Source: Bacillota bacterium
GTDB taxonomy: Bacteria; Bacillota; SHA-98; Ch115
DNA length: 64,000 nucleotides
Direction of reading: 5' to 3'
NCBI GenBank assembly: GCA_013178415.1
Contig: JABLXA010000003.1
Location: 126,815 to 190,814, forward strand
The notes below the pieces were generated by a model. That model had not been told where the DNA came from and searched no databases. It saw nothing but the letters and a program-made list of their open reading frames with translations. Both the position numbers and the translations under genes were made by a program. This document shows, in pieces, positions 1,885-5,916 of this stretch. Within the stretch, counting starts at the first letter, position 1. Each line of letters opens with the position of its first letter.

Positions 1885-2352
1885 TCAAATAGGCCCGGGT
1901 AAAATCAGTTTTTCCTTCCATTTTCCGGCAAAAAACCTTTCTGCTAATATTATAGCAACATAATCGTCATATGGTCTATCCGGGACCCTCAACCCAGCGG
2001 GAATAAATCTTGTAATTCCTCTCCCCGGGTGTTCCTTCAAGTATCTTCGCCTGGCCTCCACGCTGGTGAGATGCTCATCTACCAGGAAGACCTCCGTGCC
2101 GGGCCCTCCTCCTTCCCCGCAACATCGCGCCAGAACGGAAAGAGCCCATCTAGATCCGGTGCGATCGCCTAAGACAAAGACAGCAAGTTTATACCTTGTG
2201 AGCAAATCTCGGATGGTCTCGTGCAATTCATGGGCATCTATGACCGCCCGGCACAAAATGTGACCATCCCGCCTTACCACAGCCACACCACATTTATCGC
2301 TACCTGGATCAATTGCTATCACAACATCTGCCTGTTTCGACAGAGACCTCAA
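1885..2352 (-). CDS. RuvX/YqgF-family RNase H-like nuclease
   Basis: 155 aa with the YqgF/RuvX layout. The N-terminal acidic motif is AIDPGSDKCGVAVV (about residues 13-26), followed by FVLGDRTGS in the position of the family's VGLP loop, VDEHLTSVEARRRYL for the DERxTT motif, and RPYDDYVAIILAERF for the C-terminal Asp motif. YqgF proteins process the 5' end of pre-16S rRNA or act as Holliday-junction resolvase-like nucleases. This one differs from the core housekeeping form in DEH for DER and in a GxGITRFIPAGLRVPDR insertion, so it may be a divergent paralogue. The TTG start at 2352 is the first in-frame start and has GGGGG directly upstream, which is unusually close. Its position between two SLH proteins gives no functional clue. 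Confidence 0.7.
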   Translation of the reverse strand: MRSLSKQADVVIAIDPGSDKCGVAVVRRDGHILCRAVIDAHELHETIRDLLTRYKLAVFVLGDRTGSRWALSVLARCCGEGGGPGTEVFLVDEHLTSVEARRRYLKEHPGRGITRFIPAGLRVPDRPYDDYVAIILAERFFAGKWKEKLILPGPI

Positions 2353-2461
2353 CCCCCTATTAGAATCCCGCCTGTGCTGGCGGCAATCCCGTCACTTAAG
2401 CCCAGCACACTCCATAAAACCTCTAACATGGATAATTCCATCCGGGAATTTTCCGCGGGCA

Positions 2462-2685
2462 ACATCGTCCGCTGGAAATAGTGTTCACTATTAGCACCGT
2501 CCGCCGATGATAATGCCTGCCATTAGCATTATCCGCTCGGGACAGTGTCCGTCATTAGCATCGTCCGCAATCAACAGTGCTGGTAGCCAGCACTATCCTC
2601 CTAAAACAGTGTCGATAGCCGACATCGTCCGCCAGCAATAATGTCAGTGGCTAGCACTATCCGCCACGGACCTATTGACATTGTC
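2462..2685. repeat. Seven imperfect 32-bp tandem repeats with hairpins at unit junctions
   Basis: Seven consecutive 32-bp units start at 2462, 2494, 2526, 2558, 2590, 2622 and 2654. Each begins close to (G/A)CA(C/T)(C/T/A)(G/A)TCC(G/T)C and most carry AA(T/C)A(G/A)TG in the middle. The middle of one unit pairs with the start of the next or with a nearby arm: ATAGTG/CACTAT, ATAATGC/GCATTAT, AGTGCTGG/CCAGCACT, TGTCG/CGACA. The arms change sequence together while pairing is kept. The array fills the non-coding stretch between the RuvX-like gene (start 2352) and the end of the ompM-like gene (2857). No gene is seen in it. Confidence 0.85.
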
Positions 2686-2778: not shown

Positions 2779-2813
2779 GAGCCCCGGGCCAGGTCATCCC
2801 TGAACCGGGGCTC
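2779..2813 (-). terminator. GC-rich hairpin downstream of the ompM-like gene
   Basis: GAGCCCCGG at 2779-2787 pairs perfectly with CCGGGGCTC at 2805-2813, a 9-bp GC-rich stem with a 17-nt loop. It lies 44 nt past the stop of the ompM-like gene. There is no U-run after it on the minus strand, so it is either a factor-assisted terminator or an RNA 3'-end stabiliser. Confidence 0.55.
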
Positions 2814-2856: not shown

Positions 2857-5800
2857 TTAGAATGTCACCTTCAGGCCTGCAGAGATGATGTTCACCGAGT
2901 AGTCATTGTCCGTGTTTTGAGGATCAGACTTCTTATAGGTGTATCCAAGGTTTAACGTGGTATTGGTAGTGATGTCGTATTTGTATGTCACCTCGGCAAG
3001 GGTGTTGGCCACCGGCAGGGCTATGGTATGGACGCCCGAAACCACCTGATGGTTGCCATTATCATCGGTCTTGTCGAGTTTTCCATACTCCACCTTACCA
3101 GTCAAGGTCACCTTCGGTGTGAGCTTATGCTCGACGCTGGCCTTTACAATGCTCTTGTATGTCTTCATCTTGTTGGCATTGTCCAGGACATCGGCTGTGC
3201 GCTCATAGGTATAACCAGCGCCCAGCGTGGTCGCCTCGCTGACCTTGAGGCTCGCGTCAACGCCAGCCTTGATGGTGGCTTCAGCGGAGTCCTTGGCGCC
3301 AGGCTCGTCGTCGTCCCATGTCGCAGCGAAGAATTCCTTGGACCTATTGAGTTCATACCCGCCAGTTAGGGTGACGCCTTCAATAGGCTTGAACTCCAGG
3401 CCAAGGCCGGCCTTGGATGTGCTGTACCAGTCGCCGGTATCAGGAACGCCAAGATCCTGAGCCACGCCAGCAAAGTTATACCTCACCCTGGAATATTCAT
3501 AGCTGGCAGTCGCAGGGCCCCACTTGGCCTCGACAGATGTGCCAAGGGTTGTAGTCTTGGCGCCAGCTATATTAGTTTCCGGCTTCGTCTGGTCTGTGCT
3601 ATCCTCGTTAAGGGTGCAGGCAAAATAATTGTTAGCCTTGGCCTCAACCCCGGCGGTCACGTCAAATCCGAGGAGCTTAGTCGCCAGCTCAGCGCCGGCC
3701 TTGCCCTCAGATATCTTGCGCACGTTCCAGTCCTCGTAACCGCTTATCCCGTAGCCGCCACTCAGCGTAAGGGTCCCGCCAAGGATATTCTTCACGGGAT
3801 ACTTGGCGCCGAGGCTATATTCCTTGACATTGGGCTTTACATACCGATCAGCACTATCATCGCTGGTATTTGCGAGGACAGGCACAAAGTCCTTGCCTAC
3901 CAAGGTGTACTTAGCTTCCAGCCCGAGGTTGCCAATCGCCCCCTCGCCTTTCAGGCTATAAGCATTAGCGGTGGTATCATCTGACTCTTGAAGTTTCGCA
4001 GCCTCGCCGGTGATCTTCAGGCTCGGGGCGAGGACCGCTTCGCCATAAATGCCATAGACGCTCTGATCAGGATTGGCTGTCACATATTCGCCGATCTTGT
4101 ATTTATCCGCGTCCGCAAGAGATGTGAGATCATTTGCCACCCTCACCATGCTGGCACCAAACTTCACATTATCGGTGATATTCATCTTCACGTCAGCGCC
4201 AGCCGCATAGCGAGCATACTCTGCGGGAACTTCCGTTACTCCTGGCGAAGGAGCAACGCCCTTGACCGCATCATTTATCCTCGCCACCATGAGCGTACCG
4301 CCTAGTGGACCATATCCGAGCTCGGCGTAGGCGCCCTCATACAACGGGTTCTTGTCGGAATCCAGAAGCTTGTGCGGGGCAAGGGTGAATTTCTGGAATG
4401 CGGTATCAGCCAGTTTCACGTCGCCTGCGTGCACGTGCTTCAGGACGCCAGGCGTCACGACATCCAGCGACAGGCTGGTTATCTCGAACGACTCGGTCCA
4501 GGTACCTTTGAGGTCATTTTTCGCGCCCAGCCCTGCCTCCACCACGACGCCGGGAGCGACATCAGCCTTTAGTTTAAGCACCAGCTCATGGTAGAAATCA
4601 ATGCCGGTCGAATATGTGCCATCGCTATAGGGCCCATCATCGAAGATGTCATACGGGTCTTGCCATGCTACATTGGCGTTGCCCCTCACATCCGTGCTCT
4701 CATATTTCACTTCGCTGGAACCAGATAGGGATACCTTCTCGTGTCCGGCTATGTAGGCATCCAGCTTCTCGCCCACAGTAGACGCCTTTGTATCCACTGC
4801 TGTGATCTTCTGGTCCAGAGCGGCTATCCCGGCCGAGGTGGTGGCGATATGGCCCTCGAGCTTCTGGTCCACTGCCGTGATCTTCTGATCCAGGCCGGAT
4901 ATGCTAGCTGCGGTGCTAGCCACATGCTCGTCCAACTTCGCGCTGAGAGCATCGGCCTTCTCATTGGCGGCAGAAGCCTTGGAATCGACATCAGCTATCT
5001 GCTGCTTCATGGCGTCCATCTCGGACCGCATATCGTCTATCTTTGCATTGACAAAAGTGAGTTGCTCCTCAAGGGCAGAGACGCGAATTCCCAAAATGTC
5101 TAACTCCTTGCTGAATTCGTCCTTTAGAGCGTCAACCATGGCGATGAGCTCCACAGCCTTGTCATCGAGAGCTTTTTGCATAGCGCCAGTCAGCTCAACG
5201 CCCTTCTTGGCAAGGATATCCTTGATCTCAGCGTCAACAGCGGCGACCTGCTCAAGCGCCTTGCTAGCGTCAGCCTGGGCCGCAGCAGCTGCCTCGCCGG
5301 CCTTCGCAGCTTCAGAAGCTGCGGCGTCAGCCTTGCCGGCCGCTTCGTCGGCCTTGGCCACTGCGGTATCAGCCTTATCACTTACTTCCGATACCTGGCC
5401 TTCGAGACCTGTGACTTTCTCGTCTACGGCGCCGACCTTGCCCTGGACATCAGCCACAGCGCTTTCAAGATCAGATACCTTGCTTGCGAGCGCTTCTAGT
5501 TCGGTCTTGTCGAGTTTCTCCACTATGGTCTTCTCTACTACCCTCTCGACGGCAGCTTTTTCAGCCGGAGCTACTGGTTGCTCTGCAGGTTTTGCAGGCT
5601 CTGCCGGTTTTTCAGGCGTTGCCAGAGCCTCGGCCTTGAGCTCCTGCTTTGCCGCCTCTATCTCCGACTTTATCTGAGCGTCCAGAGAAACCAGGAGCCT
5701 TGCCACAACCATGGCCATCTGGTACCTGGTCATCGGTTCGTTGCCCTTGAAGGACCCATCAGGGAAACCTTCCACCAGGCCGTAGGCTGCAAGCTGTGAT

Positions 5801-5916
5801 ACGGCATTGTAGGCCCAGTGATTCGCCGGCACATCAGCAAAAGGACTTGCCATCGCCGGAATTGCCAGGGCAAACCCCAGCGTACATGCCAAAAATACGG
5901 CAAGCCATTTACTCAT
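2857..5916 (-). CDS. OmpM-like SLH porin tethering the outer membrane
   Basis: 1019 aa. The order is a signal peptide (residues 1-23, ending AIPAMAS), one SLH domain (about 24-75, with FADVPANHWAYNAVSQL and MTRYQMAMVVARLL), an Ala/Pro/Glu linker, a long coiled coil (about 110-395) and a ~620-residue beta-barrel ending in KVTF. This is the SLH-coiled coil-barrel plan of OmpM/Mep45 proteins of diderm Firmicutes, where the SLH domain grips peptidoglycan and the barrel sits in the outer membrane. Both coiled coil and barrel are much longer than in typical ~450-aa OmpM. The coiled coil ends with a ~25-residue internal repeat (two copies of LDQKITAVD about 25 residues apart). The ATG has GAGGGGG upstream. 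The gene stands alone behind a long structured leader, which suggests high, regulated expression. Confidence 0.9.
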   Translation of the reverse strand: MSKWLAVFLACTLGFALAIPAMASPFADVPANHWAYNAVSQLAAYGLVEGFPDGSFKGNEPMTRYQMAMVVARLLVSLDAQIKSEIEAAKQELKAEALATPEKPAEPAKPAEQPVAPAEKAAVERVVEKTIVEKLDKTELEALASKVSDLESAVADVQGKVGAVDEKVTGLEGQVSEVSDKADTAVAKADEAAGKADAAASEAAKAGEAAAAAQADASKALEQVAAVDAEIKDILAKKGVELTGAMQKALDDKAVELIAMVDALKDEFSKELDILGIRVSALEEQLTFVNAKIDDMRSEMDAMKQQIADVDSKASAANEKADALSAKLDEHVASTAASISGLDQKITAVDQKLEGHIATTSAGIAALDQKITAVDTKASTVGEKLDAYIAGHEKVSLSGSSEVKYESTDVRGNANVAWQDPYDIFDDGPYSDGTYSTGIDFYHELVLKLKADVAPGVVVEAGLGAKNDLKGTWTESFEITSLSLDVVTPGVLKHVHAGDVKLADTAFQKFTLAPHKLLDSDKNPLYEGAYAELGYGPLGGTLMVARINDAVKGVAPSPGVTEVPAEYARYAAGADVKMNITDNVKFGASMVRVANDLTSLADADKYKIGEYVTANPDQSVYGIYGEAVLAPSLKITGEAAKLQESDDTTANAYSLKGEGAIGNLGLEAKYTLVGKDFVPVLANTSDDSADRYVKPNVKEYSLGAKYPVKNILGGTLTLSGGYGISGYEDWNVRKISEGKAGAELATKLLGFDVTAGVEAKANNYFACTLNEDSTDQTKPETNIAGAKTTTLGTSVEAKWGPATASYEYSRVRYNFAGVAQDLGVPDTGDWYSTSKAGLGLEFKPIEGVTLTGGYELNRSKEFFAATWDDDEPGAKDSAEATIKAGVDASLKVSEATTLGAGYTYERTADVLDNANKMKTYKSIVKASVEHKLTPKVTLTGKVEYGKLDKTDDNGNHQVVSGVHTIALPVANTLAEVTYKYDITTNTTLNLGYTYKKSDPQNTDNDYSVNIISAGLKVTF

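Follow-up and report, generated by a model that had tools for sequence, protein, structure and literature searches.

Phased operator and centromere-type arrays consist of tandem sites for one dimeric DNA-binding protein. REP, BIME and REPIN sequences are described as short (20–40 bp) dispersed intergenic palindromes that sometimes occur in tandem or in evenly spaced clusters (PMC3733652, PMC3116915), and the repeats of TIGR arrays carry UG and CCA motifs (PMC12045711). The array at positions 2459–2661 of the window, by which we mean the whole analysed stretch of 64,000 nucleotides, belongs to a family that shares traits with each of these systems, and no description of this family was found in the literature.

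Like REP, BIME and REPIN sequences, the arrays of this family are short, palindromic, intergenic, dispersed and of high copy number. They differ in having no constant GTAG/CGTC tag: among 118 units, linkers included, 7 have GTAG and 34 have CGTC, the latter mostly as one variant of positions 22–25. They also run head-to-tail at a fixed 32-bp period instead of forming the inverted doublets of REP and REPIN sequences, keep the purine/pyrimidine (R/Y) class alone while base identity is free, and show none of the compensatory changes that are reported for REPIN hairpins. MITEs of ISKra4/ISLre2-like insertion sequences (IS) are likewise small, non-coding and dispersed, and the ends and the 8-bp direct repeat seen in the genomes G003 and G002 match ISKra4-like IS; the body of the elements, however, is a phased palindrome array that is absent from the IS, and the arrays of the window's own genome (G000) are without such ends. 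With phased operator and centromere-type arrays the family shares palindromic sites, a regular spacing close to whole helical turns and mirror symmetry at the level of the duplex; it is set apart from them by its many dispersed copies and its unusually loose R/Y sequence requirement, the protein being putative here. The likeness to TIGR arrays (TIGR-Tas) lies in the tandem units of 30-odd nucleotides with TG and CCA and in palindromic elements as in the stem-loop type, whereas variable spacers and an adjacent Nop-domain gene are lacking and the period is another.

The repeat array of the window is real. Its 32-bp unit is composed of a 25-bp imperfect palindrome with the consensus RAYRRTGYTRR-CYR-YYARCAYYRTY and a 7-bp GC-rich linker, and six complete copies in 32-bp phase are preceded by one half copy. 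The latter is the right half of a degenerate first unit (2459–2469, plus strand, GCAACATCGTC), the corresponding 25-mer at 2445–2469 showing five departures from the R/Y pattern. Units 1 (2477–2501, AATAGTGTTCACTATTAGCACCGTC), 2 (2509–2533, GATAATGCCTGCCATTAGCATTATC) and 3 (2541–2565, GACAGTGTCCGTCATTAGCATCGTC) lie on the plus strand with one departure each, while units 4 (2573–2597, AACAGTGCTGGTAGCCAGCACTATC), 5 (2605–2629, AACAGTGTCGATAGCCGACATCGTC) and 6 (2637–2661, AATAATGTCAGTGGCTAGCACTATC), assigned to the minus strand and quoted as plus-strand sequence, have none. The centre of unit 4 is oriented opposite to that of units 1–3, and R1, a profile of sequence alone that spans two neighbouring units and with which we placed arrays, matches the minus strand at 2573–2629 with 40 bits. 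The linker of unit 6 and non-matching sequence (2662–2689) form the end of the array, with 14 R/Y departures in the 25-mer at 2669. Of the seven 32-bp repeats counted in the preliminary description, six are thus complete and one is the half copy at about 2459–2469, whereas no seventh follows on the 3' side, where 2669–2693 misfits the unit.

Scored against a consensus drawn mostly from arrays other than that of the window, the six phased units show 3 departures from the family R/Y pattern in 150 positions; applied to the rest of the window, this six-unit measure gives a mean of 72 departures (standard deviation 5.6, minimum 48). Tandem Repeats Finder at score 40 did not detect the window array because its units are too diverged. 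Every unit forms an inverted repeat, and on either strand the region folds better than shuffled sequences (z = −4.3 and −3.8). A long-hairpin alternative fold of the whole array was rejected as a consequence of the repeated palindrome. The array was correctly described before as non-coding, as lying between two minus-strand genes and as unlike CRISPR, since variable spacers are missing and one R/Y pattern runs through all palindrome columns.

To see what the units conserve, we took 117 of them from 18 arrays. Their spacing is exactly 32 bp in 96 of 99 neighbouring intervals, and array length varies as whole units are gained or lost. Deviations from the majority base amount to 700 transitions vs. 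114 transversions at palindrome positions, compared with 126 transitions vs. 164 transversions in the 7-bp linkers of the same arrays. A mutational explanation is therefore unlikely, as the linkers are free of the transition bias of the palindromes. On average 7.0 of the 25 bases per unit differ from the majority but only 0.97 depart from the R/Y pattern RRYRRYRYYRRYYRYYRRYRYYRYY, a rule derived from the same units that measure it, with the linkers as internal control. A2, T6, C19, A20 and T24 are each more than 90 % constant, and conservation is mirror-symmetric, as seen for the position pairs 2/24, 6/20, 7/19 and 12/14. The simplest reading is that the palindrome is constrained as duplex DNA. 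Part of the pattern reflects shared descent, since neighbouring units are slightly more alike (0.69) than units from different arrays (0.62).

The preliminary description had proposed that the hairpin pairing is kept by covariation, from which it argued for selection on structure rather than on sequence. The stems it quoted exist, but across the 117 units the two arms pair just as independently varying arms would: 810 of 1287 positions form Watson-Crick pairs, compared with 806 ± 11 after shuffling the right arms within arrays and 783 ± 15 after shuffling them across all arrays, so that the global excess is weak and vanishes within arrays. Consistently, 80.8 % of positions are paired in alignment A2 (80.3 ± 0.6 when shuffled), its covariation score is 0.327 (0.317 ± 0.012 when shuffled), an alternative stem across the linker gave no covariation signal, and RNAalifold predicted not one pair. 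About a third of the stem pairs, on average some 4 of 11 per unit, are non-Watson-Crick, with 160 A-C mismatches being nearly as many as the 219 G-U. Mismatches of both kinds, G-T and A-C, are common, so there is no special protection of either strand. The quoted stems are units whose independent transitions happen to match; the same R/Y pattern, kept in both arms while these change independently by transitions, gives them a compensated look. A constraint other than exact sequence therefore stands, whereas selection for pairing loses the covariation on which it had been based. The arrays provide a clean case of apparent hairpin covariation that arises from a conserved R/Y class and independent transitions in two arms, and a warning against covariation claims made by eye. 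The sole place showing a compensated subfamily change is an array extension on contig C4 of the window's genome (L092:17290–17410), in which GTAGC/GCTAC replaces GTGCT/AGCAC with both arms changed.

A search of the genome for other arrays of 32-bp period, as suggested in the preliminary description, did reveal further copies: the pattern drawn from the window array recurs many times elsewhere, with the same units in the same spacing. Full palindrome pattern matches (forward + reverse) number 57 + 38 in G000 and 29 + 20 in G003, which belongs to the same order, while a reversed control pattern gave no match in either. At least 13 intergenic arrays are present in G000 and at least seven in G003. 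Those placed by R1 in G000 lie at C3:16179, C3:129277 (the window array), C17:7597, C17:12363, C17:112413, C26:22138, C31:40039, C43:7703, C5:182571, C8:65468, C4:134040, C4:142193 and C39:125, and those in G003 on contigs C6, C10, C11, C13, C1, C2 and C42. With the same profile G002 yielded a short array remnant only, G001, the nearest relative from the same family as G000, yielded no array, and each of two further class members gave a single marginal match (E about 0.09). The pattern search found the family absent from the rest of the class, G001 included, and in a sample of the phylum G000 and G003 were the only 2 of 398 genomes to match. In all, the family comprises about 20 scattered arrays known from two bacterial genomes only, G000 and G003. 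The exact two-linker pattern, run against 84,980 species in a scan from which records of the window's own genome were possibly left out, had one match, a Geobacteraceae contig with a different palindrome sequence; in IMG/VR it had none, where such records may likewise be omitted. The Geobacteraceae match is a metagenome contig (L100:6146–6265) on which strong palindromes (AACGGTGCTCTGTGTGAGCACCGTC) likewise follow one another at about 32 bp, near genes of plasmid-like appearance, and is probably unrelated to the array family.

In the window, the array is preceded in the direction of transcription by a gene for a 1019-aa porin-like outer-membrane protein with an S-layer-homology domain (2857–5916, minus strand; Pfam SLH, 1.5e-12) and followed by one for a 155-aa RuvX/YqgF-like protein (1885–2352, minus strand; Pfam RuvX, 5.8e-07), homologues of which are found in 20 of 41 genomes. 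Across the class, relatives that lack the array also have these two genes side by side. In G001 their gap measures about 150 nt and holds a terminator-like hairpin and no array, compared with 504 nt in the window, where a GC-rich inverted repeat after the porin gene (2779–2813, minus strand, arms 87 % complementary) is the counterpart of that hairpin. The window array is thus an addition here or was lost in G001. No common flanking gene was found across the arrays, whose neighbours encode a glycosyltransferase with TPR repeats, DUF4351 proteins, streptomycin adenylyltransferase, alpha-mannosidase, a type I restriction subunit, PIN, small heat-shock, GntR and ROK proteins, among others. Convergent, divergent and tandem gaps are all occupied, with no fixed orientation to the genes.

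In G003 and G002, several arrays are flanked by IS ends of CTTAGCACGCATAAGG type inside small elements that hold 3 to about 9 units. The arrays on C6, C11 and C1 of G003 have in common a left flank of 45 bp (89–98 % identical) as well as right ends of ...CCCATCCCAAGGGTTATGCGTGCTAAG type. Ends matching an autonomous IS were recognized for these three, for C10 (right end) and C42 of G003 and for C3 of G002, and the array on C2 of G003 has variant ends. When the G002 C3 and G003 C6 copies are aligned, the alignment covers the element alone and the flanks are non-homologous; the former is bounded by an imperfect 8-bp repeat, ACTTGTTC/ACTTGTTT, whose near-identical halves were read from the sequence. 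An intact IS of 1.7 kb with the same ends is present on C16 of G003 (L147:4821–6532), flanked by the 8-bp duplication AAAGATTT and encoding a 484-aa product related to ISKra4 family transposases below the model cut-off. A transposase remnant furthermore adjoins the array on C10 of G003. No IS ends were recognized at the window array, the other G000 arrays or that on C13 of G003, no target-site duplication was found at the window array, and a Pfam search of array-flanking genes returned no transposase. From the dispersal of the arrays and the array-free relative, we infer that the window copy arrived by transposition. A fragment of an IS of the L147 type lies elsewhere in the window's genome (C12:87087–87436), and its last 74 transposase residues are 100 % identical to those of G003; between genomes of different families, such identity suggests a recent transfer.

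Judged from these sequences, we give about an even chance to the array being a phased row of putative duplex-DNA binding sites for a protein. The window array would be one copy of a small, mobile, dispersed intergenic repeat with a body of tandem 25-bp palindromes at 32-bp period, and in at least one relative such arrays appear to be carried by elements with IS ends. The most likely reader of each palindrome would be a symmetric, dimeric protein that recognises it in double-stranded form, the mirror-symmetric conservation being as expected for a dimer on duplex DNA. This putative protein may distinguish purine from pyrimidine at most positions, through purine N7 contacts or flexibility at regularly spaced Y-R steps, and may read exact bases at few, namely A2, T6 and G7 and their mirror positions C19, A20 and T24. 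As 32 bp correspond to roughly three helical turns, all sites would face one side of the helix, and with constant spacing binding could be cooperative. The negative pairing tests within units, across linkers and by RNAalifold make RNA or cruciform pairing an unlikely source of the constraint. Against a binding-site row stand the flip of centre orientation within the window array and the fact that neither a binding protein nor a gene linked to the arrays was found. Only tentatively would we go further and propose a new kind of phased DNA site array with R/Y-pattern recognition, spread between genomes of one order on IS-derived elements and serving one common protein, which would organise the chromosome, regulate or act in mobility. 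Should the sites be bound, the recognition code would be loose in base identity and strict in R/Y class and phase, and more than 100 natural unit variants exist for a binding assay.

The main rival to a binding-site row, which we consider possible but rather doubtful, is that the arrays form the minisatellite inside a MITE related to ISKra4-like IS, are purely selfish and have no host function, the palindromes mattering to the transposase at most or being merely inherited. It draws on the CTTAGCACGCATAAGG-type ends and 3 to 9 units per element in G003 and G002, the occurrence of one element at non-homologous sites, the intact IS with its duplication and transposase, the remnant next to the C10 array, and the half-site of the arm, which contains TTAGCAC, the sequence found at the tip of the IS end as well. 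The intact IS is, however, without the unit (its best internal match has four R/Y departures), the G000 arrays and that on C13 of G003 are without such ends, and R/Y class and spacing are kept despite saturated transitions, which is not expected of neutral sequence.

Transcribed tandem hairpins that are protein-bound or processed as structured RNA appear improbable. Both strands do fold better than shuffles, every unit is an inverted repeat and the L092 extension has arms changed on both sides, yet the missing covariation, the empty RNAalifold prediction, the similar numbers of A-C and G-U mismatches and the share of non-Watson-Crick pairs speak against it, as do the variable orientation relative to genes and the lack of any Rfam match beyond meaningless weak ones. 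A degenerate guide array, i.e. a decayed CRISPR or TIGR stem-loop array, is very improbable indeed: palindromic units some 30 nt long, in tandem and with TG and CCA as in TIGR repeats (PMC12045711), would fit, but linkers of just 7 GC-biased nucleotides leave no variable spacers, the arrays are many and dispersed, their period is 32 instead of 36 or about 65, and no Nop-domain or Cas gene was found among the flanking genes tested in Pfam.

Beside the arrays, some minor observations were made. A second degenerate repeat of TTCCCTCYGCYGGAA-like sequence and 19–20 bp period lies at 1728–1817 of the window, upstream of the next gene, and no further copy of it was found in G000–G003. Two paralogous genes of no known family, 85 % identical over 427 bp (L084:7220–7960 and L089:8283–9146), each have an array a few hundred bp upstream; as array-linked genes they were rejected, since their homology ends 200–270 bp short of the arrays. 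The RuvX-like protein, uninterrupted in the window copy, carries an in-frame insertion of about 20–30 residues in its middle in G001 (C161, L010) and G002 (C85, L018).
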